Shown here one piece after another: positions 1-28,924 of a stretch of DNA of 36,150 nt. The stretch is from NCBI GenBank assembly GCA_902575965.1, contig CACGTM010000012.1, forward strand, positions 1 through 36,150. Direction: 5' to 3'. Below the pieces are notes generated by a model. That model was not told the origin of the DNA. It worked only from the letters and a program-made list of their open reading frames with translations, and made no database searches. The DNA comes from an uncultured Alphaproteobacteria bacterium (GTDB taxonomy: Bacteria; Pseudomonadota; Alphaproteobacteria; Rhodospirillales; Rhodospirillaceae). How positions within the stretch are numbered: position 1 is the stretch's first letter; every line of letters starts with the position of its first letter. A program made the position numbers and the translations under genes.

Positions 1-885
1 ACTAAAACTTTACATAAAAAAATTGATATACCTTTTTGGAATGGAGAAAGTATACCGGGAAAACTTCTTGTGTGGACTGAGCAAGGCCTTGGAGATGAAA
101 TTATTTTTGGGACAATCATCAATGACTTGATCAAAGATTTTAAAGACGTTAAAATTGCATGCTCAGAGAGAATGCAACCTATTTTTAAAAAAGCTTTTCC
201 ACAAAACCAAGTTATCCCAAGAGAAATTAATGGGATAGCATCAAAGCATTTAAGGGATATAAATTATCAAGCATCTCTAACCGAAGTTGCATCAATTTAC
301 AGGCCAAATGTAGAAAGCTTTAAGAGTGATGGCATTTATCTAAAATCAAATGAAAAAAAAACGGAAGAGCTAAAAGCAAAATATAGAAAAGGAAGAAAAA
401 TACCATTAATTGGAATATCTTGGAGATCATCTAACACTTTAGCACAAAATCAAAAAAGCATGCCCTTGATCAATTGGGAAAACATTATAAATCTATCTTC
501 GGCAGAATTTATATCCCTTCAATATGGTAACACCGATGCTGAAAAAAAATATTTTTATGAAAAGACAGGTATAGAATTAATTAGTGATAGTGAAATTATT
601 CCTGAAAAAAATTTTCAGGGTTTTATCAATCAAGTTCATGCAATGGATTTAGTAATCTCTGTTTCGAACACAACAGTTCATGTAGCTGGAGCCTTAGGCG
701 TCCCCACTTGGGCTATTATTGCAAAGGGGACAGGACGCCCATGGTATTGGTTTAATGGGCATGAGGAATGCTTGTGGTATAAGTCTGTTAAAATCTACAA
801 TCAAAGAAATAGTGGAGACTGGACAGAGCCAAGATTGAGAATAGAACAAGACCTTAATGACTGGAAAAAAGATTGGAAAAACTAG
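1..885 (+). CDS. TPR-linked GT-B glycosyltransferase-like protein, 5' truncated by window edge
   Basis: The reading frame is open from base 1, so the N-terminus, probably including a TPR array, lies outside the window. The visible 294 residues form a GT-B sugar-transferase domain. It has the family start motif LLVWTEQGLGDE (about residues 22-33), then IGISWRSS, LQYG, and the C-terminal block AMDLVISVSNTTVHVAGALG followed by WYWF and a Trp-Tyr motif. The SNTTxHxAGALG block resembles the donor-binding loop of GT9/heptosyltransferase-type enzymes. A GTG at 70 is an internal codon, not the start. The stop overlaps the next gene by 13 bp. The donor sugar and acceptor cannot be read from the sequence; by analogy with TPR-GT proteins such as FlmG it may glycosylate a protein. 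Confidence 0.85.
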   Translation, partial: TKTLHKKIDIPFWNGESIPGKLLVWTEQGLGDEIIFGTIINDLIKDFKDVKIACSERMQPIFKKAFPQNQVIPREINGIASKHLRDINYQASLTEVASIYRPNVESFKSDGIYLKSNEKKTEELKAKYRKGRKIPLIGISWRSSNTLAQNQKSMPLINWENIINLSSAEFISLQYGNTDAEKKYFYEKTGIELISDSEIIPEKNFQGFINQVHAMDLVISVSNTTVHVAGALGVPTWAIIAKGTGRPWYWFNGHEECLWYKSVKIYNQRNSGDWTEPRLRIEQDLNDWKKDWKN

Positions 886-3881
886 ATAATATTAAGAAAA
901 CCTTGCTTGAAAGAGCCATTAAATCTCACCAAACAGGGCAGCTTAGTGAGGCAGAGCTTCTATACAATAGCTATCTTTCTAATTACCCAAATGATCCTAA
1001 TGCGCTTCACTTGAGTGGTGTGCTGAATATACAACTAAAAAAGATAACAGAGGGTATTAATAGAATCAAAAATGCCATAAAAATAAAAAAAAATTTTCCC
1101 CAAGCACTATCTAATCTAGGTAAAATATTATGCGATATGGGAGATTATAAATCTGGAAGTTTAGCGTATTCTCAATCAGTACGGCAGAATAACAAAAATG
1201 AGTCTGTTTGGAACAGTTTAGCAATAAGTTTTTTTAATGATCAAAATTATTCCGCTGCTATAAATACAATAAACGAAGCAATAAAGTTACATCCACTTTC
1301 AGAATCACTTTATGATAACGGATGCCGATTTTATAAAAGAGAAAATAAAATAAATGAATGCTACCTTTTTGTTAAAGAGGGTTTAAAGAAATTACCTGAA
1401 AGCCCTCGCCTAAAAATGCATTATGCCCAATGCTGTTTTCTATTAAAAAAATTTGACCAGGCCTGGAAAGCTTATGAAATTAGGCTGGAAGAAAAAGAAA
1501 ACCCAAATCAAAATCCGTCATACCCTTTTCCCACATGGAACGGTGAGAATTTAAAAAATAAATCTTTTCTGATTTGGACAGAACAGGGCCCGGGTGAAGT
1601 GTTCCTTTGCTCATCAATGATCAAAAAAATCATTGATTTAACAGAAAAATGTTTAATTATTACCTCTAAACGTTTCATTGGAATTCTTCAAAGATCCTTC
1701 CCTAATGCAGAGATTTTGGATGGAGAAGAATTTTCTCCATCAAACAAAAATATTGATTACCAGAGCTCTACGATGAATCTTGGTAAGTATTTGATAAAAA
1801 AATTCAGTGACATAGAGTCATGCAAGGGGAATATAATACCAAACCCTGAGGTGACAAATAAACTAAGAAAAAGTTATCAATCAATCTCACCTGGCTCAAA
1901 ACTTGTTGGTATTTCCTGGAAGAGTATAGAATCTATTTACTCCAATAATAAAAACATAAATGTTACTGAAATTCTCCCTATTCTAAAAATACCAAACCTT
2001 ATATTTATAAATCTCCAATATGGGAATATTGATAAAGAACTAGTTGAGATAAAAAATAATGATATCAAATTTATTACAGATAAAAATATAGATCCTTTAA
2101 AAAACCTAGATGACCATGTAGCGCAAGTTGCAGCAATGGATTTAGTAATTACAACATCCAACACTACAGCTCACACAGCCGGGGCAATCGGGATAAAAAC
2201 CCTCTGCCTACTTCCTCACACTCTTGGAGAAGGGCTCTTATGGTATTGGTTTAAGGATATAGATAAGTCACCTTGGTACACCAATACAAAACTCTACAGA
2301 CAAAGAAAACATAATGAATGGTCTCAGCCATTAGGTGAGCTTGCAAATGATCTAATAGCGCACCTGCATCAAATTAATTTAATTGATAACCCTGGGGAAG
2401 TAGCAAAAAATCTTTCTGAATTATTCCTCAAAGCAAATAAAATAACCCCAGCAGGTATCTTAGCATTACTATCGATAAATTATGGCAAGAATGATGTAAG
2501 CTTATTTAGAACAGATGCAAGCTCAAAATCTACTGACGGGAAATACTCTAAAGCTTTGGATATTTTAAATAAAGCCCTATGCCTTCACAAGAATAATACT
2601 GACCTTCTCATAGACAAAGCAAATAATTTAACAAATCTATGCATGTATGATGAAGCATCCAAAACCCTTAAAGAGGCTCATGATATAGAAAAAGATAACT
2701 TTATCATCCTAAATAATTTAGCCTTAAGTAAAAGAAGAAATGGTAAAACACATGAGGCATTAAGAATATTTAAACAAATAAAACCTATGGAAAAAAACAA
2801 TGTAGCCATTAAATTATCAATGGCCGCTTGTTTGTCAGAAATAGGAGATTCTGAAAAAGCAATTGAAATATTTAATGAACTCATACATGAGAATGAAAAA
2901 TCATTTAAGGCAAAAACGTCTCTTGGTATGCATTGTTTAAAATATGGTAAACTAAAAGAAGGATGGCTTCTTCTCAAGAATAGACTTAATCTGGAAAGTG
3001 CAAATATAAATTATGATAATTTTCCATTTAGAATTTGGAATCAAGAAGAACTAAATGATAAAAAAATTCTTGTATGGACAGAACAAGGTATAGGTGAGGA
3101 AATACTCATTTCAACAATGATAAACGATGCAATAATAAAAACCAAATCTATAACACTCCTTTGCTCAGAAAGAATGATTCCCTTATATAAAAGAAGCTTT
3201 AAAAAAATAAATGTTATCGAAAGGAAAGAGCCGCTAGCACCTAAAGCACTTGATAGCTCATTAGACTATCAAATGTCTCTAAGCGATCTAGGTCTTCTTC
3301 TAAGACCTAACATACAAAGCTTTTCAGAAAAAAATAAACCGCCTCTAAAACCTAACAAAATATTAAAAGAAAAACTTAGAAAAAAATACAAAGAAGTAAC
3401 TAATTCTAAATTTCTTATTGGCATTTCTTGGGACAGTCAAACCCCAAAAATTGGTAAATTAAAGAGCATTAAACCACACTATTTCTCAACACTAGCAAAA
3501 AATAAAAAAATTAGACTTATCTCGCTGCAATACAATCCACATAAAGATGATCTAAATTTAATGAGAAAAGTATTTGGAAGTAATTTTTTTTATGATCACA
3601 AAATAGACCCACTTATCAACTTAGATAATTCAGCATCCCAAATCGCAGCTATGGACCTTGTTATAACTATTAGCAATACAACCGCGCACCTTGCAGGAGC
3701 ATTAGGAATTCCCACATTACTACTTCTTCCTAAAGGTACTGGGAGACATTGGTACTGGTTTAATGGACTAAAAAAGTCTCCATGGTATAATTCTATTCAA
3801 ATTTTTGAATGTGATTATGATTATGATTGGTCAAAACCTATCGAACTAATCCAAAATAAAATACAAGAGATAATCAGTTAA
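873..3881 (+). CDS. Double TPR-GT-TPR-GT fusion protein (two GT-B domains)
   Basis: This 1002-residue protein contains the whole TPR-GT architecture twice. A TPR array covers about residues 12-215. The first GT-B domain covers about 225-510, with IWTEQGPGE, VGISWKS, LQYG, SNTTAHTAGAIG and LWYWF. A second TPR array lies at about 565-715. The second GT-B domain runs from about 728 to the end, with VWTEQGIGEE, IGISWDS, LQY, SNTTAHLAGALG and HWYWF. In the first GT domain the usual G-L-G-D-E loop reads G-P-G-E-V, so that domain may have altered activity. The start is a TTG at 873 inside the previous gene (13-bp overlap); a TTG at 903 is an alternative, and neither has a strong ribosome binding site. 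It ends one base before the next gene, which suggests translational coupling. Function is inferred; the architecture is clear. Confidence 0.88.
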   Translation: MEKLDNIKKTLLERAIKSHQTGQLSEAELLYNSYLSNYPNDPNALHLSGVLNIQLKKITEGINRIKNAIKIKKNFPQALSNLGKILCDMGDYKSGSLAYSQSVRQNNKNESVWNSLAISFFNDQNYSAAINTINEAIKLHPLSESLYDNGCRFYKRENKINECYLFVKEGLKKLPESPRLKMHYAQCCFLLKKFDQAWKAYEIRLEEKENPNQNPSYPFPTWNGENLKNKSFLIWTEQGPGEVFLCSSMIKKIIDLTEKCLIITSKRFIGILQRSFPNAEILDGEEFSPSNKNIDYQSSTMNLGKYLIKKFSDIESCKGNIIPNPEVTNKLRKSYQSISPGSKLVGISWKSIESIYSNNKNINVTEILPILKIPNLIFINLQYGNIDKELVEIKNNDIKFITDKNIDPLKNLDDHVAQVAAMDLVITTSNTTAHTAGAIGIKTLCLLPHTLGEGLLWYWFKDIDKSPWYTNTKLYRQRKHNEWSQPLGELANDLIAHLHQINLIDNPGEVAKNLSELFLKANKITPAGILALLSINYGKNDVSLFRTDASSKSTDGKYSKALDILNKALCLHKNNTDLLIDKANNLTNLCMYDEASKTLKEAHDIEKDNFIILNNLALSKRRNGKTHEALRIFKQIKPMEKNNVAIKLSMAACLSEIGDSEKAIEIFNELIHENEKSFKAKTSLGMHCLKYGKLKEGWLLLKNRLNLESANINYDNFPFRIWNQEELNDKKILVWTEQGIGEEILISTMINDAIIKTKSITLLCSERMIPLYKRSFKKINVIERKEPLAPKALDSSLDYQMSLSDLGLLLRPNIQSFSEKNKPPLKPNKILKEKLRKKYKEVTNSKFLIGISWDSQTPKIGKLKSIKPHYFSTLAKNKKIRLISLQYNPHKDDLNLMRKVFGSNFFYDHKIDPLINLDNSASQIAAMDLVITISNTTAHLAGALGIPTLLLLPKGTGRHWYWFNGLKKSPWYNSIQIFECDYDYDWSKPIELIQNKIQEIIS

Positions 3882-3882: not shown

Positions 3883-5475
3883 ATGTCAAACAATAATCTA
3901 GTAAGCACTAATCAGAAAAGCCCCCCAAACAAAATCAATGATAGAAACTTTATAGATACTATAGAAGCTTACAAAGATATCTTATCAAAGAATCATAATG
4001 ATATAGATGCAATTTTGGGAATAGGATTAGCCTTTGAGAAAATCAATGATTATAAAAATGCAGCCTTGTATTATGAAAAGGCATTAGGTTTAAAACCTGA
4101 AGATTCCAAAACTCTTCACAACCTAGGAAGAATTTATATTTTCTTAGATCAAAGCAGGGATGCAGAAAAAAAGATTAAAGAATCATTGCAGATTTCTCCT
4201 TCTTCAGAAGCAGCATGGTGTGATCTCGGCCTAAGCCAAATGCTTAATAAAGATTTTGACAGTGCAGAATTAAGCTTTAGAAATTCTATAAAACTTAATC
4301 CACGCTTCACAACTGCATATCATAATCTAGCTGAATGTTACCAACAGAGGTTTAAATATGAAGAAGCCATAAAAATGTTTTTAAATGCTTTAGAAATTAA
4401 TCCTAATCTTGAAAATACAATAGCGTCACTAGCAGAGACTTACGCAGATATATTTGAAACTGAAAAGGCATTAGATACACTTAATAAGCACATCGCAATG
4501 AACCCACAAAGCGTAACTTGTCGTCAGTCTCGTGCAATAATACTGCTAAAAGAAAAAGAATTTAATAAAGGCTTTCATGACTATGAATGGAGATTAAATC
4601 CCTCATCAAGCAATTTTATAGCAAGACCTTTTGCACAAAAACTCTGGAAGGGAGAAAATGAAAAAAGCAAAACACTTCTGATTTGGCTAGAACAAGGAGT
4701 TGGTGATGAAATTCTCTCATTAAATCTAGTTAAATATTTTTCAAAAAAAATAAATAACTTACTTATAGAATGTGACCCACGTCTTGAAAAGATACTTAGG
4801 AGATCATTCAAAAATATAGAAATATTTTCAAGGGTTGATGCGCCTTCGAAAAAAATAAAAGATACCGATTTTGTATGCCCTATATGGTCAGGTGCAAAAT
4901 TTTTTGACCTTGATAATAAATTTGAGACGCAAAAAAAACCTATACTAAAGCCAGATAAACTTAAGGAAGGTTTTTACAGGGAAAAATATAATAAACTGGG
5001 AAACGGAAAAAAAATAATAGGCATATCATGGTTTAGTGGAGGAAACTTTAGCCAACTTAAGACGCCTCCTTTAGAGTCATGGAAAAAACTTTTATCCCAT
5101 GAAGACATATTCTTCGTCTCTATTCAATATAACCCTTCAAAAAAAGATCTTAAAGTATTAGATAATTTTGCTCCTCATGGTATTTATTTTGATGATTCAC
5201 TTGATAATATTAATGATATTGATGAGATTGCGGCTCAAATTTGCTCCTTAGATGCAGTCGTAACAGTCAGTAATACTAATGCTCATCTAAGCGGTGCGCT
5301 TGGCAAACCAGTTGGAACAATTATTCCTTACTCCAGAGGGAGCTTCTGGTATTGGTTCAAAAATACTGAGGAATCTGCCTGGTATCCATCAATGACACTG
5401 TTTAGACAAAATAGCCCGGGAGACTGGGACTCAGCTATTGAAAAAAGTATCAACTGGGTGAGGAAAATAATATAA
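3883..5475 (+). CDS. TPR-GT-B glycosyltransferase-like protein
   Basis: The 530-residue protein has a TPR array (about residues 25-230; repeats such as AALYYEKALGLKPEDSKTLH and AELSFRNSIKLNPRFTTAYH). A GT-B domain follows from about residue 263, with LLIWLEQGVGDEI, IGISWFSGG, IQYNPS, VSNTNAHLSGALG and FWYWF, and a final region with AWYP and LFRQ. WLEQ replaces the usual WTEQ, and CSLDAVV replaces AAMDLVI, so this copy is diverged but keeps the conserved His and the GT loops. ATG 3883 lies one base after the preceding stop. The gene belongs to the + strand TPR-GT run and is probably co-transcribed with it. Acceptor and donor are unknown. Confidence 0.87.
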   Translation: MSNNNLVSTNQKSPPNKINDRNFIDTIEAYKDILSKNHNDIDAILGIGLAFEKINDYKNAALYYEKALGLKPEDSKTLHNLGRIYIFLDQSRDAEKKIKESLQISPSSEAAWCDLGLSQMLNKDFDSAELSFRNSIKLNPRFTTAYHNLAECYQQRFKYEEAIKMFLNALEINPNLENTIASLAETYADIFETEKALDTLNKHIAMNPQSVTCRQSRAIILLKEKEFNKGFHDYEWRLNPSSSNFIARPFAQKLWKGENEKSKTLLIWLEQGVGDEILSLNLVKYFSKKINNLLIECDPRLEKILRRSFKNIEIFSRVDAPSKKIKDTDFVCPIWSGAKFFDLDNKFETQKKPILKPDKLKEGFYREKYNKLGNGKKIIGISWFSGGNFSQLKTPPLESWKKLLSHEDIFFVSIQYNPSKKDLKVLDNFAPHGIYFDDSLDNINDIDEIAAQICSLDAVVTVSNTNAHLSGALGKPVGTIIPYSRGSFWYWFKNTEESAWYPSMTLFRQNSPGDWDSAIEKSINWVRKII

Positions 5476-5521: not shown

Positions 5522-6211
5522 ATGATTAAAGCATTCATAGGATATGATAGCAGAGAGACTGTTGCCTTTCATGTTCTTTCACACAGCATACATAGCAGAG
5601 CCACCACACCTGTTGAGATTGCGCCATTAATGTTATCTCAATTGTCTAAAATTTTTTCCAGAGAAAAACACCCTCTGCAGTCAACAGACTTTTCATTTTC
5701 TAGGTTTTTGGTCCCTTACTTGTCAAACTATTCTGGCTGGTCAATGTTTTGCGATTGTGACATGCTAATGATAGATGATATTTCTAACCTTTGGTCACAA
5801 AGAAACGAAAAGTTTGCTGTGCAAGTTGTAAAGCACGATCACAAGCCAACTGAAGACAGTAAATTTCTTGATCAGCCTCAGAGTAAATATGAAAAGAAAA
5901 ATTGGTCGAGTGTTATTTTATTCAATAACTCCAAGTGTAAAGCCCTGACTAAGGAGTACGTAAATAATGCGTCGGGCCTAGAACTGCATCAATTTAAGTG
6001 GCTTGAGAATGATAGTCTCATCGGCGAACTTCCGCCAAGATGGAATCATCTTGTAGACTATGATCTCACCTTACCAAAAGAAGAACTTTCATTGCTTCAT
6101 TTTACTAAAGGGGGACCATATTTTAGTGATTACAAAAATTGCAGTTACTCAGATCTTTGGTTCGAAGAACATGATAAAATGATATATGCTGGTAGCGATC
6201 ACATTAGCTAA
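5522..6211 (+). CDS. GT-A fold glycosyltransferase with DxD motif
   Basis: This 229-residue protein has no TPR and no membrane segment. It begins with a beta-strand, MIKAFIGYDSRE, typical of small GT8-like nucleotide-sugar transferases. It carries the metal/nucleotide-sugar motif D78-C-D80 in MFCDCDMLMIDD, and later an HFTKGGPYF segment like the C-terminal metal-binding His region of such enzymes. The likely reaction is transfer of a sugar from a UDP- or GDP-sugar to an acceptor, in the cytoplasm. ATG 5522 follows a purine-rich GAGAGAAAA. It lies 46 bp after one TPR-GT gene and 20 bp before the next, so it is probably in the same operon. It may supply or extend a glycan used by the neighbours. 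The fold assignment is good; the substrate is unknown. Confidence 0.8.
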   Translation: MIKAFIGYDSRETVAFHVLSHSIHSRATTPVEIAPLMLSQLSKIFSREKHPLQSTDFSFSRFLVPYLSNYSGWSMFCDCDMLMIDDISNLWSQRNEKFAVQVVKHDHKPTEDSKFLDQPQSKYEKKNWSSVILFNNSKCKALTKEYVNNASGLELHQFKWLENDSLIGELPPRWNHLVDYDLTLPKEELSLLHFTKGGPYFSDYKNCSYSDLWFEEHDKMIYAGSDHIS

Positions 6212-6231: not shown

Positions 6232-7905
6232 ATGCGCGGAAACACCGTAAATAATTCTAATAAAGATGTCTATTTAAAGGCAGCTATTGAAGCTCATCAA
6301 AAGGGTAACCTTCAAGTAGCAAAGGAAATATATAGGGCAATACTTAGCCAAGACCCAAAGAATAGTGAGTCAATTTTTAGACTTGGCACAATGGCACTTC
6401 AACTAAATCAATATGAAAAAGCAGCTGAATATATTGGCAAAGCGATAAAAATAGGCCCCCCAAGAATTTCTATGTATATTAACCAAGGAGCTGCATTAAA
6501 GCATTTAGATCAACATGAACGGGCCATAAAAGCATATAACAAAGCATTAAAAATAGATAAACATTCAGTTGATGCTCTTTTTAACAAAGGTTGTGTATTA
6601 CAAGCGCAAAATAAATTTGATAAAGCAAAAGACCTATACCTAAAAGCTCTTTCCATAAATAGTGATGATGCTGAAATATGGATAAATTTAGGGTCAGTCG
6701 AAAAAGAGCTAGGTGATAATAAAAGGGCTATTTACTCATTTGAAAAAGCAGGAGAATTAAACCCTAAGCTTGGCGCTGTATATAGCAATATTGGAGCAAT
6801 CTTGTTTGAGGAGGGCTTAGAAAAAACAGGATTAAAACTCGTTGAAAAAGCAATAGAACTTGAACCAAAAAATTCAAAATATCTTTACGACATGAGCACA
6901 TTTTGGCTTGCTCGAGGTGACCTTGAAAGAGGATGGAAAGATTATGAAAAAAGATTTCTACATAGCAAAATATCTAAAGGACGCCGTCCTCCAGCACCAC
7001 CCCCCTACTGGGAGGGTCAAGATCTTACTGAACTTAAAGATAAGAATATTCTTTTCTGGACAGAGCAAGGACTTGGGGAAGAACTCATAAGTTCTAGTGT
7101 AATCCCAAAGCTAATAAAAAAAGGACTCAAATTTTCAATTGAGTGTACATCAAAACTAGTTCCTATTTTGTCTAAGACTTATCCTCATATAAATTTTTAT
7201 TCATGGGAAGAACATGAGGAATTAATTAGAAACAAAAAGGATGAAATTGATTATCAATACCCCTTATTGAGTACCTTAAAATTTTTCTTTAAACAACATG
7301 AGCAAATTAATTACGGCAGGACATTAATAAAACCAGATATAAAAAAAACAAATCTTTTAAGAAAAAAGTACAAAGAACTTGCTCAGGGAAGAAGAATCAT
7401 AGGCATTTCATGGAAAAGTACCAGTATGACTTTTGGGACTGATAAAACCATCCCTCTAAAAGAGTGGGATAGTATCATTAACAAAAAAGATATTTTTTGT
7501 GTAAATTTACAATATGGAGAATGCCAGAAGGAAATAAATAGTTTCAATAATAAATTCGGATCAGATATATATTTTGACAATAGCATAAAACCTCTTGAAG
7601 AACTTGAGACAGCCTTTGCCCAAATAGCAGCAATGGATTTAGTTATATCAATTTCTAACAGTAATATCCATTTTGCAGGATCAATGGGTATTCCAACATT
7701 TTCGATAATACCCCGGTCAAAAGGGTTAATATGGTACTGGTTTACAAAAGGGACACACAGCCCCTGGTATCCTTCTGTCCGTCTTTTTAGGGAGACATCT
7801 CCCCCTGATACCGGAACACCTTGGTGGCCAACGGTTATTGATAATGTTGATAAAGAGCTATCTGTCTGGCTCAAGAAACCTCTTGAACCACGAATAGATT
7901 CCTAA
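6232..7905 (+). CDS. TPR-GT-B glycosyltransferase-like protein; 3' end lies in the 815-bp repeat
   Basis: The 557-residue protein has about six TPRs (residues about 12-235) and then a GT-B domain from about 270. The GT domain shows ILFWTEQGLGEE, IGISWKSTS, LQYGE, ISNSNIHFAGSMG and WYWF. Its last 57 codons, from the WYWF motif to the stop, are identical in DNA to the end of the next gene, because both lie in copies of the perfect direct repeat. The TAA stop shares its last A with the ATG of the following gene (TAATG), the usual sign of translational coupling. The conserved loop reads SNSNIH rather than SNTTAH. The start at ATG 6232 has no clear Shine-Dalgarno sequence but places the first TPR right after it. 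The acceptor is unknown. Confidence 0.87.
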   Translation: MRGNTVNNSNKDVYLKAAIEAHQKGNLQVAKEIYRAILSQDPKNSESIFRLGTMALQLNQYEKAAEYIGKAIKIGPPRISMYINQGAALKHLDQHERAIKAYNKALKIDKHSVDALFNKGCVLQAQNKFDKAKDLYLKALSINSDDAEIWINLGSVEKELGDNKRAIYSFEKAGELNPKLGAVYSNIGAILFEEGLEKTGLKLVEKAIELEPKNSKYLYDMSTFWLARGDLERGWKDYEKRFLHSKISKGRRPPAPPPYWEGQDLTELKDKNILFWTEQGLGEELISSSVIPKLIKKGLKFSIECTSKLVPILSKTYPHINFYSWEEHEELIRNKKDEIDYQYPLLSTLKFFFKQHEQINYGRTLIKPDIKKTNLLRKKYKELAQGRRIIGISWKSTSMTFGTDKTIPLKEWDSIINKKDIFCVNLQYGECQKEINSFNNKFGSDIYFDNSIKPLEELETAFAQIAAMDLVISISNSNIHFAGSMGIPTFSIIPRSKGLIWYWFTKGTHSPWYPSVRLFRETSPPDTGTPWWPTVIDNVDKELSVWLKKPLEPRIDS

Positions 7906-8546
7906 TGTCAACGCAGCAAGAAATAATTTCCCTTTTAGATCAAGCGGTTAAAATGCATCAAGCAAACCGACTTAAGGAAGCTGAAAATCTATATAAAAAA
8001 GTTCTCACCTTGTCCCCTCGACAATATGACGCACTTAACCTCTTAGGTGTCTTAGCCCATCAGAGTGGAAACAATGATCAAGCAATAGACTTATTTGATC
8101 AGGCCATTGCTGCATCACCAAACCTTGCCTCAGCTCACTTTAATAAAGGAAATGTCCTCTATGGTAATAAACAACTGGAAGAATCGGTAAGTTGCTACAA
8201 AACTGCCCTTACCTACGATCCACAATCGCAAGATGCTCTTCTCAATCTTGGTGTGATACTTCAGGAACAAGAAAAAACAGGAGAAGCTCTGAGTATATTT
8301 TTAAAATTAATAAAGATTGCGCCTAATAACCCTAAGGCGCATTACAACAAAGGAAAGTGCCTACATGCGACAGGCAACCTTAAGGATGCTGAAAAATCCC
8401 TTAAGGACGCTCTGAAACTAGACCCAGAAAATGCAGACTGCTGCTTTGCCCTAGCAACAGTGAAGGAAGAGCTTCATCAAAATGAGGAAGCAATTAAATA
8501 CATTCAAAAAGCAATTAAAATTAAACCCGACTGGGCACAAGCGTAT
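7732..8546 (+). repeat. 815-bp perfect direct repeat, copy 1
   Basis: This copy starts at TGGTACTGG in the WYWF codons of the upstream TPR-GT and ends at the codons for the DWAQAY segment of the downstream TPR-GT. It matches 9768-10582 at a constant offset of 2036 bp, with no difference found on reading both copies. The flanking bases differ at both ends (A versus T before it, C versus T after it). It spans the last 174 bp of one gene, the TAATG junction and the first 642 bp of the next. Confidence 0.96.
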
Positions 8547-9941: not shown

Positions 9942-10582
9942 TGTCAACGCAGCAAGAAATAATTTCCCTTTTAGATCAAGCGGTTAAAATGCATCAAGCA
10001 AACCGACTTAAGGAAGCTGAAAATCTATATAAAAAAGTTCTCACCTTGTCCCCTCGACAATATGACGCACTTAACCTCTTAGGTGTCTTAGCCCATCAGA
10101 GTGGAAACAATGATCAAGCAATAGACTTATTTGATCAGGCCATTGCTGCATCACCAAACCTTGCCTCAGCTCACTTTAATAAAGGAAATGTCCTCTATGG
10201 TAATAAACAACTGGAAGAATCGGTAAGTTGCTACAAAACTGCCCTTACCTACGATCCACAATCGCAAGATGCTCTTCTCAATCTTGGTGTGATACTTCAG
10301 GAACAAGAAAAAACAGGAGAAGCTCTGAGTATATTTTTAAAATTAATAAAGATTGCGCCTAATAACCCTAAGGCGCATTACAACAAAGGAAAGTGCCTAC
10401 ATGCGACAGGCAACCTTAAGGATGCTGAAAAATCCCTTAAGGACGCTCTGAAACTAGACCCAGAAAATGCAGACTGCTGCTTTGCCCTAGCAACAGTGAA
10501 GGAAGAGCTTCATCAAAATGAGGAAGCAATTAAATACATTCAAAAAGCAATTAAAATTAAACCCGACTGGGCACAAGCGTAT
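9768..10582 (+). repeat. 815-bp perfect direct repeat, copy 2
   Basis: Second copy of 7732-8546, at a 2036-bp offset. It covers the last 174 bp of the 7905 gene, the TAATG junction and the first 642 bp of the 9941 gene. Perfect identity, including third codon positions, across a gene junction indicates a very recent duplication, active gene conversion or an assembly join. Confidence 0.96.
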
Positions 10583-13353: not shown

Positions 13354-13357
13354 CCGG

Positions 13358-20279: not shown

Positions 20280-20914
20280 ATTTTTTAGCTGATCCTATTT
20301 CGGAAATAAAAACACTTTATAATTCTAAAAAAGCTGATTTTTCGAATGAATTAAGAAATAATCAAAGACTACAATTAATGTCACTTAGTGGGTTTATAAT
20401 ACTTTATTTACTAATTTTATCTTCACTATTTAATATTACAAATCAAACAATTAAGGACCTACAAGATATAATCTCCGAAAGTTCTCAACTAAAATCTCAA
20501 ATAGGAAAACAAAATTGGTCAGAAAGAGAAGAAGAATCCAAAAAAATTCTTGGTCAATTAAAAAGCGGTCTATGGGCTGGAGAAACTCCAGGGCTTGCTG
20601 AGGCTGATTTTGAGGCATGGATAAGAAAAAACTTGAAGAATAATGGAGTAGATGTAAGACGAGTGCAATTAACAAGAGCACCAGTAGATAATGATCTGAT
20701 GCTCTCAGAAGAAGAAAGAGTTAGAGGAATTCAACGTATTAGAGCAAAGGTAATTACGCCATTAAAGGAGAGTGGTTTAGTTAAATTTCTAAACATAGCG
20801 TCACAAAATGACTCATGGGTTGTTGTTGAGAAATTAATAATCAGAGCTGGTAGGAATGATAGGATAGAAATGGAGCTTTCTGCATTTTATTTACCAAAGG
20901 AAGGTATTTTATGA
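20276..20914 (+). CDS. gspM: Inner-membrane assembly protein GspM-like
   Basis: The 212-residue protein has a short cytoplasmic part, one membrane segment (about 36-56), a coiled-coil region (about 58-95) and a small ferredoxin-like periplasmic domain (VDVRRVQLTRAP ... VVEKLIIRAG). This is the layout of GspM, partner of GspL. AGAGGAG lies eight bases before ATG 20276, and the gene overlaps gspL by four bases. Sequence similarity of GspM proteins is always low, so position and topology carry the call. Confidence 0.78.
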   Translation: MNFLADPISEIKTLYNSKKADFSNELRNNQRLQLMSLSGFIILYLLILSSLFNITNQTIKDLQDIISESSQLKSQIGKQNWSEREEESKKILGQLKSGLWAGETPGLAEADFEAWIRKNLKNNGVDVRRVQLTRAPVDNDLMLSEEERVRGIQRIRAKVITPLKESGLVKFLNIASQNDSWVVVEKLIIRAGRNDRIEMELSAFYLPKEGIL

Positions 20915-21420
20915 AAATATCAACCCAAGAAAATTATCTGAACACTATTAAGAAGTTAAGTAAATATAGAATCAATATCTTTATTATTTTCCTCTCAATA
21001 ATTTTAGCCATTCTAATATCCTTTTTTGGAGCCAATTCTTCATTATATAAAGAAATTAGTAATCAAGATTGGTCACTTCCTGTCTCGCCTGAAATAAAAC
21101 TAATGTCTGAACTCAATTCTATTCTTGCATCACCTTTATTTGGTGGTAAACCTGAAATAATTGAAACAATTGAAGAGATTAGTGGAAATGAAATAAATAA
21201 TGGAAAATGGAAAATTATTGGAATAATTGAAGATGGGGAAGAAAAATTTGCATTAATAAATGATTTCTCAGACAATAAGGTTAAACCTGTCTCAGTTGGA
21301 GATACTTTTCCAAATGGTGAAGTATTATTAGAAATATCAAAAAATAGTATCTCAGTAAAAAATATAAAAGAAGTTCGAACTATCTCCCTTTTTAATAAAA
21401 AAATTACAGAAGGAAAATAA
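20911..21420 (+). CDS. gspC: GspC-like inner-membrane protein with HR domain, no PDZ
   Basis: The 169-residue protein has a cytoplasmic tail, a membrane segment (about 22-42) and a periplasmic domain. That domain contains SPLFGG and then WKIIGIIEDGEEKFALI, VKPVSVGDTFPNGEVLLEI and ISVKN, the pattern of the GspC homology region that contacts the secretin N0 domain. The usual C-terminal PDZ or coiled-coil domain of GspC is absent. AAGGAAGG precedes ATG 20911, which overlaps gspM by four bases. The gene lies just before gspD, as gspC often does. GspN-like or PilP-like alternatives are possible. Confidence 0.75.
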   Translation: MKISTQENYLNTIKKLSKYRINIFIIFLSIILAILISFFGANSSLYKEISNQDWSLPVSPEIKLMSELNSILASPLFGGKPEIIETIEEISGNEINNGKWKIIGIIEDGEEKFALINDFSDNKVKPVSVGDTFPNGEVLLEISKNSISVKNIKEVRTISLFNKKITEGK

Positions 21421-21423
21421 GTG

Positions 21424-23463
21424 ATGGGAAAAAAACAATTACTATCTCTTATAAATCAATTTAAAAGTTACACCAAAGTACTTTTATTAATATTGCCTCT
21501 AGTGAGTTGTGCAGGAATGCCAAGAACACCTATTACAGAACCGTTATTAATTAAAAAAGAAATTAATGAAGGACAAGAGGGTCAAATCTTAGGAGTAAAC
21601 AGAGGAAGAAATCAAATTTCTTCCTCACCTGGCATAAGAACACCAAGCGGTCGGAGTTTAGGGGAACCCATAACGAGCACTAAAGCTCCACCATTAACCG
21701 GAGAAAGTATTAGTATAAATTTTGAAGGAGTTAGACTTCCGGCATTCATTAATACAGTATTTGGAGAGCTTCTTGAAGTCACCTTTGAAATTGATAGTCA
21801 GGTACTTCAAAAGGAACAGTTAGTTACACTAAGGACATCTGATGCGTTAAAACCAGATAACTTCTATCAATTAGTCACCCAAGTACTAGCAAATTATGGA
21901 GTTCGTGTAGTTTATGAAAATAATGTTTATAGGGTTATTCAGAACACCCAAGCTCAAAGTGAAATACCAAGAATAGTTAGATCTAGAGCATTTAGCACCG
22001 TTCCAGGTGACATGAGACCCGTATTTCTGTATGTTAAAATTGACAATGTGCGTGTGAAATCAATGCAGATATGGCTTGAGCAAGCACTAAAGGGAAGATT
22101 AAGGATTAATGGAGTTCCTTACACAAATGCTCTGATGCTCTTAGGAACAGCTGAGGATATTGCAGCAGCCACTGAAGTTATTGAAATACTTGACCAACCA
22201 AATTTTGCTGGAAACAGGAGTTTAAAAATATCACCAGCATTTTGGACTGCGGAAAAACTTACTCAGCAGTTAATAATTGTTCTTAAGGCAGAGGGTTTCG
22301 CTGTTGACTCTAATACTGAGAGTGATGCGCCAATAAAACTCATACCTGTTCAAGCACTTAATCAGATTATTGTATTTGCTTCTAAAGAAGAAAATTTACA
22401 ACATGTAATGGATTGGGCTTCCGAATTAGATAGGCCGGGACAAACCATAAACGCAACAGGAGTTTACTATCACCCAATTGAAAATACTAATGCTGAGGAT
22501 ATTGCTTCAATCATCGGACAGCTTCTAGGAGAAAGCAGTGAACAAAGTCAAGAGGCAAGCTCAGGTGACAATGACCAAACTAGTAAGGTGATAGTTGATA
22601 CTGGAAGGAATGCAATAATTTTTCAAGGAACAGCTGAGGAATATGCTCAATTTCGCTCCCTTGCAGAACAAATGGATCGAGCACCTTATGAAGTACTTAT
22701 CGAAGCAACAGTTGCAGAAGTTACTTTGGATAAAGGAGAATCTCTTGGTGTCTTATTAAATTTTGATGAAACTGGTATTTCAACGGCAAATCAAATCTCA
22801 GTAAGCTCAGATGGAGGTATACTAGCAAACCTGATACAAGACAGGGGTGATTTTACAGCAGCACTAAATGCAGCTGCAGATAAAAGCAAAGTTTCTATTC
22901 TCTCAAGCCCAAGATTAGTAGCAGCAAGCGGTAAATCTGCATCAATGCAAGTTGGCACTCAGGTTCCTATAATTACTACACAACAAACTGCACCTGATGG
23001 CTCAACACTAGGTACCAGTAATATACTTCAGCAAGTACAATATAGATCTACTGGAATAGTCCTAAACATTGAACCAATTGTAAATTCAAGTAGACGAGTT
23101 GAGTTAACGGTGAGGCAAGAGGTAAGTGATGCTCAAAATAATGATACGTATAACATACAAAGCCCCATAATCTTGACAAGAGGTATAGAAACAACATTAT
23201 CTGTAGATGATGGAGAAACAATCCTACTTGCAGGACTGATCTCAGAGAACTTTAGTGAGGGAGATAATGGAATACCTTTCCTCAAAGACGTTCCATTGAT
23301 AGGTAATGCCTTTAAAACACAATCAAGAGCACTTCAAAAGACCGAATTAATAGTATTACTAACGCCATATATTATTGATAGCCAAAGTACTGCCAGAGAG
23401 ATACGTGATGCTTTCCGGTCAAAACTAAATAATTTGTCAGAATCCTTCGAAAAAATTGAATAA
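21424..23463 (+). CDS. gspD: Type II secretion outer-membrane secretin GspD
   Basis: ATG 21424 (with AGGAAA eight bases upstream) gives 679 residues; a GTG at 21421 is an alternative. A signal sequence ends in LPLVSC, a lipobox with Cys29, so the secretin is probably a lipoprotein. The N0 domain starts at ISINFEGVRLPAFINTVFGE, followed by N1-N3 (VYYHPIENTNAEDIASIIGQ is a typical N3 start) and the secretin core: ILSSPRLVAASGKSASMQVG, VPIITTQQ, GIVLNIEPIV, LTRGIETTLSVDDGETILLAGL, and VPLIGNAF with ELIVLLTPYII. It forms the outer-membrane channel of the T2SS. The C-terminal S-domain is very short, which fits self-targeting by the lipid anchor. Confidence 0.95.
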   Translation: MGKKQLLSLINQFKSYTKVLLLILPLVSCAGMPRTPITEPLLIKKEINEGQEGQILGVNRGRNQISSSPGIRTPSGRSLGEPITSTKAPPLTGESISINFEGVRLPAFINTVFGELLEVTFEIDSQVLQKEQLVTLRTSDALKPDNFYQLVTQVLANYGVRVVYENNVYRVIQNTQAQSEIPRIVRSRAFSTVPGDMRPVFLYVKIDNVRVKSMQIWLEQALKGRLRINGVPYTNALMLLGTAEDIAAATEVIEILDQPNFAGNRSLKISPAFWTAEKLTQQLIIVLKAEGFAVDSNTESDAPIKLIPVQALNQIIVFASKEENLQHVMDWASELDRPGQTINATGVYYHPIENTNAEDIASIIGQLLGESSEQSQEASSGDNDQTSKVIVDTGRNAIIFQGTAEEYAQFRSLAEQMDRAPYEVLIEATVAEVTLDKGESLGVLLNFDETGISTANQISVSSDGGILANLIQDRGDFTAALNAAADKSKVSILSSPRLVAASGKSASMQVGTQVPIITTQQTAPDGSTLGTSNILQQVQYRSTGIVLNIEPIVNSSRRVELTVRQEVSDAQNNDTYNIQSPIILTRGIETTLSVDDGETILLAGLISENFSEGDNGIPFLKDVPLIGNAFKTQSRALQKTELIVLLTPYIIDSQSTAREIRDAFRSKLNNLSESFEKIE

Positions 23464-23495: not shown

Positions 23496-24287
23496 ATGTT
23501 AAGGAATATATTTTTTGTAGTAACTATCTTATTCATTTCAAATTGTTCATCTGTAACGGATCCAGCCAAAACACATGAATACTGGTATCCTAATGCAAAT
23601 AAATTAAGAGATGCCAGTACAGAAATTCTTCAAAATCAGTCACTTAATGGAGACGTTGAGGCCTCATTGATTCTTGGGATGAGAATGGCAAATGGAGATA
23701 GAATAAAAAATGATCCTGTCAGTGCTTTTTTAATTTTTCAAAAGTTAGCTAATAAAAATGATCCACGAGCACAATATCTTCTTGGTGCAGCTTATGCTTC
23801 TGGATTAGGTACAGATAAAGATGAACAAATCGCTGTTAAATGGTTTAAGAAATCAGCTCTTAATGGTTATGATAAAGGACAATATTGGTATGCACATATG
23901 TTATCAAGAGGCCGAGGGGTTAAATACACTGATTGGGAGGAAGCCATAAAATGGTTCAAGAAAGCTTCAATACAAGGTCATACCAACGCCCAATTTAGCC
24001 TTGGTGAAGCATATGAACAATGCAGAGGAAGACTTGATAGAAATTTTGATAAAGCTGCTCAATGGTATAGAATAGCAGATAAATACACTGATAATATGCT
24101 TGCAAGATATAATCTTAGAAGATTGATTGATCTAGGCCTTACGGATTGGAAAGAGGGTGATGCGGGTACATCTCCAAATAAGTTTCAAGATATAACTAAA
24201 GAAAGTTTTATTTCCTGTTCAAAAGGGATAAAGGATCCATTTTTATCTGAAGATTTTAAAATTAGACCAATACTGACTGCAGAATAA
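23496..24287 (+). CDS. Sel1-repeat lipoprotein, T2SS-associated
   Basis: The 263-residue protein has a short signal ending ISNC (Cys17; the Asn at -1 is not ideal for a lipobox) and then about four Sel1-like repeats (DPRAQYLLGAAYASGLGTDK, KGQYWYAHMLSRGRGVK, NAQFSLGEAYEQC). Sel1 repeats are alpha-helical protein-binding solenoids in the periplasm or at the outer membrane. GGAG lies seven bases before ATG 23496, and the gene starts 32 bp after gspD. The position suggests a secretin helper, such as a pilotin-like or scaffolding factor, but no known pilotin is recognised. Two further Cys near residues 185 and 240 could form a disulfide. Confidence 0.8.
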   Translation: MLRNIFFVVTILFISNCSSVTDPAKTHEYWYPNANKLRDASTEILQNQSLNGDVEASLILGMRMANGDRIKNDPVSAFLIFQKLANKNDPRAQYLLGAAYASGLGTDKDEQIAVKWFKKSALNGYDKGQYWYAHMLSRGRGVKYTDWEEAIKWFKKASIQGHTNAQFSLGEAYEQCRGRLDRNFDKAAQWYRIADKYTDNMLARYNLRRLIDLGLTDWKEGDAGTSPNKFQDITKESFISCSKGIKDPFLSEDFKIRPILTAE

Positions 24288-24555: not shown

Positions 24556-26397
24556 ATGAATAATCATAAGGATGAAATTAAAAAAGGGTATGACCTCCAT
24601 TCAAATGGTCAACTTCAAGAAGCCGAATCTATTTACAAGAATGTACTTCATGTAAATAAAGAAAATATAGAAGTTCAATACCTTTTAGGGTTGGTTAAAT
24701 ATGAACTTGGTAAACTTCATGAAGCATATGACCTTATAAAAAAAGTCTGTAAAAAAAATAACTCAAATAGTGATTACCTTTATAATTTATCTTTAATTTC
24801 ACTTAAACTAGAGAAAAAAAAAGAAGCCTTAACGCTTGCTCAAAGAGTAATAAGTCTAGCTCCTAATAATTCCTTATATTACAAACTTTATGCAGAATGC
24901 CTTCAAAGGTTAGGAAGGTATCAAGAAGCAATTGACACGTATAAAGATTATGAAAAAATTGCAAAACACGTTCCAGAAGAAATAATCTTAAATCAAGGTT
25001 TGCTTTTAACGGATATAAAGAAATATATTGAAGCAGAGTCTAAATTTAAAAATATTTTAAAAATAAATCCAGATTCTATAGACGCAGTTCTCGGAATAGC
25101 AAAAATAAATTTATTAAAGAAAAAATACACGAGAGCAGTTGAATTATTAAATAAGTTATCTAACAAGCACAAAGATAACAAAAAAATTGAAATAATGAGA
25201 GCTAATGCATACTTCCAATCTGGTGACCTGAATAATGCATTATCGATTATCACAGAGATACTCAAAAAAAATAAAAATGATTTAGCAATATTAAATAATA
25301 TTGGATATATACTTAGAGAAATGGAGAATTATTCAGAAGCAAAAGAATATTTTAAAAAAATAATAAAATTAGATCCCAAACATATAAATGCAAATGTAAA
25401 TTTAGGTCTTATTCTACTATCTGAAAAGTCATACAAAGAAGGATGGAAACATTATCAATTTAGAAATTCTCAAGAATCAGTTAAAAATAATACTCCAAAA
25501 ACTAATTCTCAAAAATGGAATAATAAAACATTACATAATAAAAAAGTATTAGTATGGACAGAACAAGGTTTAGGAGATGAGATACTTCAAGCAAGCCTTG
25601 TAAATGATCTAAGGGATTTTGTTGACGAATTAACTGTTTTATGCTCTGAAAGACTTTTGACAGTTTTTGAGCGATCATTTCCAAATGTAAATTTTTTTAG
25701 CAAAAATAATCCTGCTATCTCATCAATGAATTTCCAGGATCATTTATCATGTCCTTTACTAGATACAGCTATATTCTTAAGATCACATGAGTCAAAGTTT
25801 TCAAATCTAAATAATTATTTGCTCCCCGATAAAAATAAAAAAGAAATTCTAAGAAATAGATATTTAAATCTAATCCCAAATCAACCCAATAAACCAATTG
25901 TTATTGGCATATCTTGGAGAAGCGAGAATGAAAAATATGGAATTCAAAATACCATTAAATTAGAGAACTGGTATCCATTTTTTAATGTAATTAAGAACAT
26001 GAAGAGGAACATCGTTCTATTAAGCACTCAATATAAATGCTGCGAAGAAGAACTTGAATATGTTTATAAGCACTTTGGAATTGAGATTTATCTTGATAAA
26101 GAGATTGAGTATTCTAATGATCTTGATAGTCCAATTTCACAAATTGCATCATGTGATTATATTATTTCAACTAGTACAACTACTGCCCAAATTGCAGGTG
26201 CTTTAGGAAAAAAAATATGGCATCTACCGTCCAATGGAATTTCATGTGGATGGTATTGGCTTCACAAAGGTGATAAGACACCTTGGTACCCGCAAATGAC
26301 GCACATTAGACGTAAGGGTAATAATATCTCTGCTCAATTAAAAAAACTATCAGAAGAAATCTCAAGGCATTTTAAAAACAAAGAATTGATTATTTAG
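24556..26397 (+). CDS. TPR-GT-B glycosyltransferase-like protein with His-to-Gln change in the donor loop
   Basis: The 613-residue protein has a long TPR array (about residues 5-300) and a GT-B domain from about 328: VLVWTEQGLGDEIL, IGISWRSEN, TQYKC, STTTAQIAGALG and GWYWL. In all other GT domains here the loop carries a His (SNTTAH type); here that position is Gln545. The WYWF motif also becomes WYWL. This may be an inactive or altered transferase. Codon use is very AT-rich. It starts at ATG 24556 with no clear ribosome site, 39 bp after the small membrane gene, and ends overlapping the convergent TPR gene by eight bases. Confidence 0.87.
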   Translation: MNNHKDEIKKGYDLHSNGQLQEAESIYKNVLHVNKENIEVQYLLGLVKYELGKLHEAYDLIKKVCKKNNSNSDYLYNLSLISLKLEKKKEALTLAQRVISLAPNNSLYYKLYAECLQRLGRYQEAIDTYKDYEKIAKHVPEEIILNQGLLLTDIKKYIEAESKFKNILKINPDSIDAVLGIAKINLLKKKYTRAVELLNKLSNKHKDNKKIEIMRANAYFQSGDLNNALSIITEILKKNKNDLAILNNIGYILREMENYSEAKEYFKKIIKLDPKHINANVNLGLILLSEKSYKEGWKHYQFRNSQESVKNNTPKTNSQKWNNKTLHNKKVLVWTEQGLGDEILQASLVNDLRDFVDELTVLCSERLLTVFERSFPNVNFFSKNNPAISSMNFQDHLSCPLLDTAIFLRSHESKFSNLNNYLLPDKNKKEILRNRYLNLIPNQPNKPIVIGISWRSENEKYGIQNTIKLENWYPFFNVIKNMKRNIVLLSTQYKCCEEELEYVYKHFGIEIYLDKEIEYSNDLDSPISQIASCDYIISTSTTTAQIAGALGKKIWHLPSNGISCGWYWLHKGDKTPWYPQMTHIRRKGNNISAQLKKLSEEISRHFKNKELII

Positions 26398-27040
26398 AGT
26401 ATTCCTCGATGAGACGTTTATATTCTGGGTTATCTGGATCTAATTCTGAAGCTTTATTCATTAAATCAATTGCTTCTTCCTTATTTCCACCCTCAGCATT
26501 AATCACACTCAATCCATAATGGATTTGTGGAATAGAATTATCTTTTTCTAGAGCTTGTTCTAAGTATTCCCTTGCAGCTTCATGTTGTCCTGTAAATATT
26601 GCACATAACCCAGCACAAATAATATGTTTGATATTATCAGGCTCGATAACATTAGCCCTTTGATAAGCTGCAAGCGCGTCATGAAAGTTTTTGACTTTCT
26701 GATATGTATCACCGAGCGTAGCAAAAATTTCTGCACTCGAAGGATCTAACTCAGATGCTCTTTTTAGAGAAATAATTCCTTTATCAACTTCACCTTTATG
26801 TAAAAAAGCATTACCAAGTACAAGATGAAATTCAGCGTTATGTTCATCTAATTCAATAGCGGCATCTAAATAATTTATACCATCGTCAAATTTATTTTTC
26901 TGACAAGATAGGACACCTAATAGTTTCAATGCCTCAGCATTTTTGGTTTCTTCCACTATAATTTCTAGATAAATTTCTTCCGCTTTATCTAGTTGCCCCT
27001 CTTGGTGGTATTTTAACGCGATATCTAGCTTTTCACTCAT
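26390..27040 (-). CDS. TPR-only protein, possible adaptor
   Basis: The gene is read on the minus strand. ATG 27040 gives 216 residues starting MSEKLDIALKYHQEGQLDKA; I prefer it to ATG 27046 because AGGAAA lies seven bases upstream of it and only one base from the other. The protein is nearly all TPRs (about six units: AEEIYLEIIVEETKNAEALK, GINYLDAAIELDEHNAEFHL, ALAAYQRANVIEPDNIKHII and others) with no GT domain, signal peptide or membrane segment. It is more acidic than the TPR parts of the neighbours. It may be a free adaptor or a remnant of a TPR-GT gene. It converges on the TPR-GT gene with an eight-base overlap. Confidence 0.85.
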   Translation of the reverse strand: MSEKLDIALKYHQEGQLDKAEEIYLEIIVEETKNAEALKLLGVLSCQKNKFDDGINYLDAAIELDEHNAEFHLVLGNAFLHKGEVDKGIISLKRASELDPSSAEIFATLGDTYQKVKNFHDALAAYQRANVIEPDNIKHIICAGLCAIFTGQHEAAREYLEQALEKDNSIPQIHYGLSVINAEGGNKEEAIDLMNKASELDPDNPEYKRLIEEYSK

Positions 27041-27176
27041 TTTCATATTTCCTATTTCAAAGGATAAAGTTTTTTATATATATAGAATAGATTATAAAGT
27101 AAAATAACAAAAAATTAGTTACTTAATGAATTTTTTTATTAATAATAAGTATAAAAACATTCTCATAATAATCAAT

Positions 27177-27182: not shown

Positions 27183-27199
27183 AATTCTATATTATTAAC

Positions 27200-28924
27200 A
27201 TGACAAATAAACAAGAAAATAACGAGGATATTTACCTGAGAGAGGGTGTACATTTTTTATCTAAAGGATTTATAAGCGAAGCTAAAGAATCCTTTAATAA
27301 TGCGCTTAAGTATAACCCCAAATCCTCTCCTGCATTACATAACTTGGGGCTAATTAGCCTTAGAAGTAATAATCTATTGAGAGCAAGAGAGTTACTTGAG
27401 AAGTCCGTGGGCTTAAATCCTTCTGTGGAAACATATACAATTCTTGGTGAATGTTATGAAAAAATGGGCGAACATCAAAATGCTTTAGTATGCTATAAAA
27501 TTATCCTAAAAAACTTTCCTAAAAAAATTCCAATTATAATTAAAAGCGCAAGCCTTTTTGAAACACTAGGTAAATTCGAAAAAGCTATAAAACTATATTA
27601 TAAAATTGTTCAAAATGAACCAGAAAATACTGAGATATCTATAAAATTAGCCTGGTTATTGTGGAAAAAGAATCGTCATGATGCAATCGAAATACTTGAG
27701 AAATGTCTATTATTAAACAAAACAAATACTCTTAAAAAAATTAAAATACTAAGTGTATTGATTCTCTTCAAGGAATGGTCATTTAGAATTAAAAATAATA
27801 AATTACCTTATCACGCCTTATCGATTGATGATATCTTCTTCAAAAGTACAAGTGATATATTACTTCAGCTTGATAATGAATCTTCTATTTTATTAGAAGA
27901 GTTTAAAGATCATCCTCAAGCATATATGATTAAGGGTATTGTTAACTTTGTGAGAAAAAAGAACCAAAATGCTCAAGATTTTTTTGATATGGTATCAAAG
28001 TATTCTAATAATAAAATGACAAGAGCTATACGATTTGATAATGAATTTTTCTCACATTTAAATGACTTTGATACTATAAAACTTATTAAACATTTACCTA
28101 AACTGTTAGAAGTTAAAGAACGGAATATCTTTGAAAATGATATTATATACCTTTCATGTAATTCTGATTACTTTAATTATTTTACAAAACCATTACTTCT
28201 TTCAATAAATAACCAGACCGAAAAAACTAGTGTTCATATTCATATTATGGACTCTGACACAAGACATACTGAATATGCCCTAGACTTTTGCTCACTTTTA
28301 ACAAATATTGATATCTCCATTAGTGTTGAGAGACCTAAACTACCACCAAATGATATTAACTATGCAAGATCATACTTTCATGCTATCCGTTTTATTAGAC
28401 TCTATCAACACCTGTTAAAGTTTAAAAAAAGATTGTGGCTGATGGATGTTGATGCTCTTTTTAATCAATCTCCAAAATTCTTATTTAATAAATTCAAGAA
28501 TAAAGATATTTCTCTTAGAATTAGACCTGCCAGGCTTGAACCCTGGAATCAATTTAATGCATGTTTATTTGGTGTAAATTACTCTAAAAAAGCAATTAAT
28601 TATCTTCATAAGATAGCAGCATACATTGCATATTTTCATCAAAATGCAGAGCTACCGTGGGGTATTGATCAATTAGCAATGTATGCCTCATATAATAATA
28701 TTGATACTAAAAACAAACCTTCTATTGGCTTCATGGATGATAAGGTCCTTGATTATGAATATAATAAGGATGGACTTGTATGGTGTAGCTCAGGGTCAAT
28801 TAAATTTGCGGCTCTAAATAAATCTAGAATAAAAAACAATGAAGAAGTAACGCCATATGAACTAAGATTTGAAAATTATAATAATAAAATTGAAATGCTT
28901 GACGAAAAGCTAAATTCAGGCTAA
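27200..28924 (+). CDS. TPR protein fused to a GT-A (DxD) glycosyltransferase-like domain
   Basis: The 574-residue protein has a TPR array (about residues 8-175), a helical linker (175-310) and a C-terminal GT-A-like domain (about 312-560). The latter starts with a beta-strand NDIIYLSCNSDYFNYF, contains LWLMDVDALF with the metal-binding D416-V-D418, and later GIDQLAMY, a motif common in GT8-type enzymes. No GT-B motifs are present. It therefore pairs the same TPR module with a different catalytic fold. It stands alone on the plus strand and its 3' end carries the likely metZ promoter. The acceptor is unknown. Confidence 0.8.
   Translation: MTNKQENNEDIYLREGVHFLSKGFISEAKESFNNALKYNPKSSPALHNLGLISLRSNNLLRARELLEKSVGLNPSVETYTILGECYEKMGEHQNALVCYKIILKNFPKKIPIIIKSASLFETLGKFEKAIKLYYKIVQNEPENTEISIKLAWLLWKKNRHDAIEILEKCLLLNKTNTLKKIKILSVLILFKEWSFRIKNNKLPYHALSIDDIFFKSTSDILLQLDNESSILLEEFKDHPQAYMIKGIVNFVRKKNQNAQDFFDMVSKYSNNKMTRAIRFDNEFFSHLNDFDTIKLIKHLPKLLEVKERNIFENDIIYLSCNSDYFNYFTKPLLLSINNQTEKTSVHIHIMDSDTRHTEYALDFCSLLTNIDISISVERPKLPPNDINYARSYFHAIRFIRLYQHLLKFKKRLWLMDVDALFNQSPKFLFNKFKNKDISLRIRPARLEPWNQFNACLFGVNYSKKAINYLHKIAAYIAYFHQNAELPWGIDQLAMYASYNNIDTKNKPSIGFMDDKVLDYEYNKDGLVWCSSGSIKFAALNKSRIKNNEEVTPYELRFENYNNKIEMLDEKLNSG

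Follow-up and report, generated by a model that had tools for sequence, protein, structure and literature searches.

A type II secretion locus interleaved with TPR-glycosyltransferase genes in uncultured Alphaproteobacteria: a candidate glycoprotein-coat export unit

Gene content and order of the locus

The window considered here is a stretch of 36,150 nucleotides of uncultured alphaproteobacterial DNA, a single contig from a genome that is 58% complete. Its first 28.9 kb contain eight genes encoding TPR-GT-B proteins (nine GT-B domains; TPR-GTs below), the GT-A-like enzyme GTA1, a TPR-GT-A fusion, a type II secretion system (T2SS) cluster and a single gene for a secreted protein, SEC. This inventory had been proposed in an original prediction made from the sequence, and it is borne out by the open reading frames (ORFs), Pfam searches and alignment. 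The remainder of the window is housekeeping DNA (metZ, apaG, folE, trkH, argF/argD and an ABC permease), the genes of which serve as synteny landmarks; the argF-like gene (32949-33891) reads as two overlapping ORFs in different frames where relatives have a single frame, reflecting either a frameshift or a sequence error. Genes were called from ORFs together with Pfam and NCBIfam searches, and the features of the locus are as follows.

1..885, + strand: GT1, TPR-GT-B, 5' end cut by the contig start (Pfam Glyco_transf_9, weak, E 0.0022; GT-B alignment)
873..3881, +: GT2dbl, double TPR-GT-B fusion (TPR and two GT-B domains)
3883..5475, +: GT3, TPR-GT-B (Pfam, GT-B alignment, tree)
5522..6211, +: GTA1, GT-A-like enzyme (no Pfam or NCBIfam family; invariant DCD motif)
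6232..7905, +: GT4, TPR-GT-B (AF2 model, Foldseek)
7732..8546, +: direct repeat R, copy 1, covering the end of GT4 and the TPR start of GT5 (815/815 identical to copy 2)
7905..9941, +: GT5, TPR-GT-B between the 815-bp direct repeats (repeat comparison)
9768..10582, +: direct repeat R, copy 2, covering the end of GT5 and the TPR start of GT6 (815/815 identical to copy 1)
9941..11668, +: GT6, TPR-GT-B (Pfam, GT-B alignment, tree)
11894..13315, +: SEC, secreted protein with a Sec signal, candidate S-layer-like T2SS cargo (position, composition, model)
13356..13385, +: hairpin resembling an intrinsic terminator, after SEC (13-bp stem, then a T-rich tail)
13516..14724, +: gspF (PF00482, E 6e-51)
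14734..15207, +: gspG, major pseudopilin (PF08334, E 1e-31)
15167..15637, +: gspH, pseudopilin (N_methyl; TIGR01708 weak)
15630..16076, +: gspI, pseudopilin (N_methyl; position)
16076..16693, +: gspJ, pseudopilin (N_methyl; position)
16690..18141, +: GT7, TPR-GT-B inside the T2SS operon (start overlaps the gspJ end by 4 bases)
18197..19267, +: gspK (PF21687/PF03934)
19167..20279, +: gspL (position and orthology, conserved slot; no Pfam match)
20276..20914, +: gspM (NF040576, E 1.4e-6, below cut-off; conserved slot)
20911..21420, +: gspC (position, conserved slot; no family match)
21421..23463, +: gspD, secretin (PF00263, E 9e-44; best NCBIfam TIGR02517, E 3e-87)
23496..24287, +: putative Sel1-repeat lipoprotein, conserved at the operon end (adjoins gspD in maps reaching that far)
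24556..26397, +: GT8, TPR-GT-B (Pfam, GT-B alignment; long branch in the tree)
26390..27046, - strand: stand-alone TPR protein (same place conserved in the nearest genera)
27200..28924, +: TPR-GT-A fusion (TPR and a weak Nucleotid_trans match, PF03407, E 7e-4)

Pfam recognises gspF, gspG, gspK and gspD and identifies gspH to gspJ as prepilins, while gspL and gspC were assigned by gene order and the gene in the GspM position gave a weak GspM match. The gspE gene lies outside the window, where the contig stops; in relatives the GT cluster ends with it on the far side, the gene found there reading as the ATPase GspE. Several relatives also carry a prepilin peptidase gene a few kb beyond gspE on the same contig, and an A24 peptidase was found in 11 of 11 T2SS-positive relatives tested versus 0 of 4 T2SS-negative ones; the window's own genome, 58% complete, gave no prepilin peptidase match. 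With the ATPase and the peptidase supplied by relatives, the secretin, ATPase, GspF, pseudopilins and prepilin peptidase by which T2SS membership is judged are all present.

The consensus order across relatives is gspE-[TPR-GTs+GTA1]-SEC-gspFGHIJ-[GT7]-gspKLMCD-Sel1. GT genes and T2SS do share one locus, as had been predicted, but the enzymes lie within the gspE-to-gspD order rather than merely surrounding the secretion genes. The GT7 slot between gspJ and gspK is shared by eight genomes of the nearest genera and is without GT7 in G020, G038 and G009, and in genomes of the g20 type the operon is partly inverted with its parts still together. Judging from its sequence, the hairpin that follows SEC fits a separate transcript for this gene.

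Distribution of the locus among related genomes

GT enzymes were found between gspE and gspF in about ten genera of uncultured marine and freshwater alphaproteobacteria, and when GTA1 was used to scan named genomes, this arrangement reappeared in some thirty MAGs bearing Rhodospirillaceae, Alphaproteobacteria or Marinimicrobia labels; because it recurs in so many genera, the arrangement is far beyond chance. SEC stands immediately before gspF in all relatives where both are visible, with one SEC gene per locus. Of the 59 family genomes compared, 24 carried both gspD (E<1e-100) and SEC (E<1e-20), 1 carried gspD alone, 1 SEC alone and 33 neither (Fisher 3e-14), and for gspD versus GTA1 the counts were 22/3/1/33 (5e-12); as the genomes are related, these p-values overstate independence. 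Over 37 family genomes the number of TPR-GTs was 10-20 in those with the system versus 0-4 (9 in one case) in those without it (Mann-Whitney 3e-7), the difference giving p=1e-4 with one genome per genus. Genomes of genus g7 have kept the T2SS and SEC, with GTA1 mostly missing.

The co-occurrence in related genomes on which the original prediction depended is therefore found: TPR-GTs, GT-A enzymes, SEC and T2SS are genetically linked in about ten genera, and across the family they tend to be present or absent together. It could be argued that this linkage came about accidentally, through shared ancestry or mobility, and that the GT genes have unrelated targets, given that TPR-GT paralogues are partly dispersed in the genome away from SEC and that other families of the order possess many TPR-GTs without this system. 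However, the interleaving is conserved, the slots are orthologous, and repeated rearrangements keep the parts together, and we regard such an accident as very improbable.

Among the records recovered, those titled Candidatus Marinimicrobia that carry the alphaproteobacterial locus (L109, L112-L114, L116, L118-L119, L122-L124, L130 and L176) are probably mislabelled MAGs. One family member without this T2SS (G019; C88 and others) encodes nine TPR-GT domains, three of which lie in a single frame of 2045 residues.

The TPR-glycosyltransferases and their neighbours

Alignment indicated that the invariant residues of the family are kept in 9/9 GT-B domains of the window. When 121 GT-B domains from 13 genomes were placed in a tree (a quick method with SH-aLRT support only), they grouped mostly by locus slot, with cross-genus groups for GT1, both halves of GT2dbl, GT3, GT4/5, GT6 and GT7. 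The double fusion is kept across genera, as are the orthologue groups of both its domains; orthologues of GT1 are present in G001, G056 and G052, and those of the TPR-GT-A fusion in G024, G037, G043, G052, G007, G009 and G025. Because the domains group by slot, the set appears old and kept rather than a recent expansion, and the tree argues that it is ancient and probably non-redundant. GTA1 is 70-78% identical between genera and has an invariant DCD as its DxD motif.

The AF2 model of GT4 (pLDDT 87) comprises a TPR solenoid and a GT-B fold, and at full length its best Foldseek matches are SPINDLY and OGT (GT41), with which it shares domain order and overall fold. The catalytic half, in contrast, is GT9-like and aligns to the GT9 enzyme 3tov (Z 18.1, rmsd 3.6, 269 residues); the Pfam GT41 model, Glyco_transf_41, matched no protein of the window and did match another gene of the same genome. 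PDB sequence searches with GT-B, GTA1 and SEC profiles returned no convincing relatives. No signal peptide was seen on the TPR-GTs, and hence they are probably cytoplasmic. Kinship of the catalytic domain to GT9 heptosyltransferases might instead suggest a lipid acceptor, the enzymes making a part of a surface polysaccharide or LPS on which a SEC coat is anchored, and S-layers are often anchored on LPS O-antigen. We consider this improbable, since solenoids of the SPINDLY/OGT type and the flagellin and pilin links described below point to protein acceptors, and neither lipid-carrier nor flippase nor polymerase genes were found in the window.

GT5 is flanked by the two perfect 815-bp repeats, between which recombination would, from the sequence, excise it exactly. 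The sister genome G001 has a single repeat copy and no GT5, while G056 possesses GT5 between flanks of its own that are independently similar (86% and 93%) and its near relative G047 is without GT5. Although the window repeats are possibly an assembly artefact, the same presence/absence in the G056/G047 pair speaks for a real pattern, and it suggests variation by recombination. The TPR arrays of GT5 and GT6 are identical and their GT domains different, making a common substrate likelier than one substrate per array. This, along with the one SEC gene per locus, argues against the earlier suggestion that each TPR array recognises an exported protein of its own; several enzymes acting on one shared substrate fits better.

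The same GT families have telling neighbours elsewhere: in four order-level relatives TPR-GTs lie at a distance of 0.8-2.6 kb from flagellin genes, and in Betaproteobacteria GTA1 or TPR-GT genes stand beside type IV pilin (PilA-like) genes (L144, L150, L152 and L173). GTA1, which represents a widespread GT-A-like family without a Pfam or NCBIfam match that occurs near TPR-GTs and pilin or flagellin genes, also lies near flagellin in another genome (L211), and in a Beggiatoa MAG a TPR-GT and GTA1 adjoin a T2SS and two secreted proteins of ~488 residues. The shared thread is that the neighbours of this GT family are exported structural proteins (flagellin, pilin, surface-layer-like protein). The flagellin and pilin neighbourhoods strengthen the analogy, drawn at the outset, with FlmG of Caulobacter, whose TPR module binds its exported flagellin substrate (PMC7591256). 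The likeness is one of domain architecture, with an N-terminal TPR and a C-terminal GT-B domain in FlmG and window enzymes alike; the window differs in its many paralogues, including a double fusion, in their placement within a T2SS operon that includes the gene for a Sec-dependent protein, and in having no flagellin nearby.

Two further ideas were rejected. Flagellin as the main target does not accommodate the nearly complete, T2SS-positive genomes G005, G024 and G035, which gave no flagellin match yet hold 11-15 TPR-GTs, and the dispersed TPR-GTs of the same genomes do not lie beside flagellin genes, their neighbours being mostly housekeeping genes. Single TPR-GT genes outside the locus do occupy conserved places common to different genera (L181/L187, L182/L190, L184/L189 and L188/L191), one such position being beside rplM-rpsI.

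SEC and a candidate route for coat export

SEC has a Sec-type N-terminus and matched no Pfam or NCBIfam family. Averaged over relatives it contains 27% Ser+Thr and 8% charged residues, compared with 13-17% Ser+Thr and 16-23% charged residues in the pseudopilins and GspD. Its model shows several beta-sandwiches, for which the best structural matches are fimbrial and sortase pilins, AgI/II adhesins, integrins and one S-layer protein (Foldseek TM-scores ~0.2-0.25); on the model, the fold class is clear and the family not assignable. Ribosomal L16, sought as an expression yardstick, was not found in the 58%-complete genome of the window.

The C-terminal ~110 residues of SEC are found again, at as many as four copies, in secreted subtilases and reprolysin-like metalloproteases encoded by SEC-bearing genomes (L192:982-3231, L193:4205-7711, L195:4664-8149, L196:6577-8856 and L199:4808-8194). 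No match to this domain turned up outside the family, the genomes with a match being nearly all T2SS-bearing, and the distribution suggests that the domain, which has no Pfam name, is common to T2SS cargo. A Beggiatoa SEC-like profile run over a phylum sample of 397 genomes matched in two only, in both cases beside a T2SS; both genomes belong to one family, with loci that resemble Slr4 loci and have TPR-sulfotransferases and other glycan genes as neighbours. Aligned by hhalign to T2SS-adjacent proteins of the Beggiatoa MAG and of these two Slr4-locus-like genomes (a set distinct from Slr4 itself), the SEC profile scored 32.5 over 91 columns at a probability of 8% and in the C-terminal domain only, against a mean of 13.9 and a maximum of 21.6 in 40 shuffles, so that any homology to Slr4-type proteins is weak. 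SEC resembles the Slr4/NpdA type in that its gene lies beside a gsp cluster and its product has a Sec signal and no Pfam domain.

The original prediction left open whether the secreted protein or the pseudopilins are decorated. Genetic linkage is in keeping with decoration as such, which is plausible, and SEC appears the better substrate candidate because of its mean Ser+Thr content of 27% versus 13-16% in the pseudopilins alone. Modification of the pseudopilins (GspG-K) or other machine parts in place of cargo would suit the position that GT7 takes in the window clade, between gspJ and gspK, and the GTA1/TPR-GT genes beside PilA-like genes in Betaproteobacteria, and a TPR/OGT-domain protein is cited in PMC9260433 as modifying PilA in Synechococcus. 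However, the pseudopilins are ordinary in Ser/Thr and charge, it is SEC that most GT genes flank, the GT7 slot is empty in the three genomes named above, and some ten enzymes would be odd for a short periplasmic pseudopilus, making this reading rather unlikely.

We favour, at a probability of roughly 55%, the reading of the locus as a dedicated unit for exporting a glycoprotein coat, in which SEC is glycosylated by cytoplasmic TPR-GTs before Sec/T2SS export. Building on the gene content, order, co-occurrence, orthologous slots, folds and composition computed here, we infer its substrate, linkage, order of events and S-layer role as follows. SEC would be an abundant S-layer-like surface protein, bound before Sec export by the TPR solenoids of cytoplasmic TPR-GTs, which together with the GT-A enzymes would add sugars stepwise and directly to Ser/Thr (or Asn), with no lipid carrier, in the manner of FlmG with flagellin. 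The Sec signal peptide would then take glycosylated SEC across the inner membrane, followed by folding in the periplasm and exit via the surrounding T2SS, which probably also exports the subtilases and reprolysin-like proteases bearing the C-terminal domain of SEC. Whether the TPR-GTs act on this broader cargo as well, SEC plus the proteases sharing its domain, is a compatible extension that we think unlikely: the domain does recur in these proteases, and their Ser+Thr content is 16-22%, but their genes lie elsewhere in the genome whereas the GT genes cluster at SEC. More speculatively, and with considerable doubt, a lipid-independent line of about ten TPR-GTs might build a composite glycan on one S-layer protein within the T2SS operon, with GT5 as a recombinational cassette whose loss and gain alter the coat, for instance against phages.

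Such a unit would combine known elements, namely a T2SS-linked locus of the surface-layer type and glycosylation of the FlmG type, and its mechanism is plausible, genetic linkage being the level at which the interpretation is supported. HMW1/HMW1C offers a precedent for glycosylation ahead of Sec. As in that system (PMC3012730), a cytoplasmic GT would act on a protein that is afterwards taken across by Sec and then through the outer membrane, the difference being that HMW1C uses two-partner secretion and is a single GT41-type enzyme. The S-layer genes npdA, slr4 and vapA likewise adjoin a seemingly dedicated T2SS (PMC10765051, PMC7821379); we found no embedded TPR-glycosyltransferases described there, and the similarity of SEC to Slr4-like proteins is weak and falls in the C-terminal domain. 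In agreement with the initial claim of novelty, the open-access literature yielded no description of a T2SS locus with embedded TPR-GTs, most subscription papers lying outside this coverage.

Protein glycosylation and type II secretion tend to be treated as separate subjects, and here a T2SS operon carries its own predicted TPR protein glycosyltransferases and very probably its own cargo across about ten aquatic genera. If our reading is true, the locus offers genetic access to the way in which a cytoplasmic glycosyltransferase selects its exported substrate, makes the adjacency of this GT family to exported structural proteins a general rule, and shows how surface coats are built and altered among uncultured marine bacteria.

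Finally, loci of another family that pair a T2SS with an Slr4-like secreted protein carry TPR-sulfotransferases and sulfotransferases (L204:12688-17399 and L206:16887-17714), with TPR-sulfotransferases in place of TPR-glycosyltransferases at one Slr4-like locus, possibly representing a parallel decoration system.
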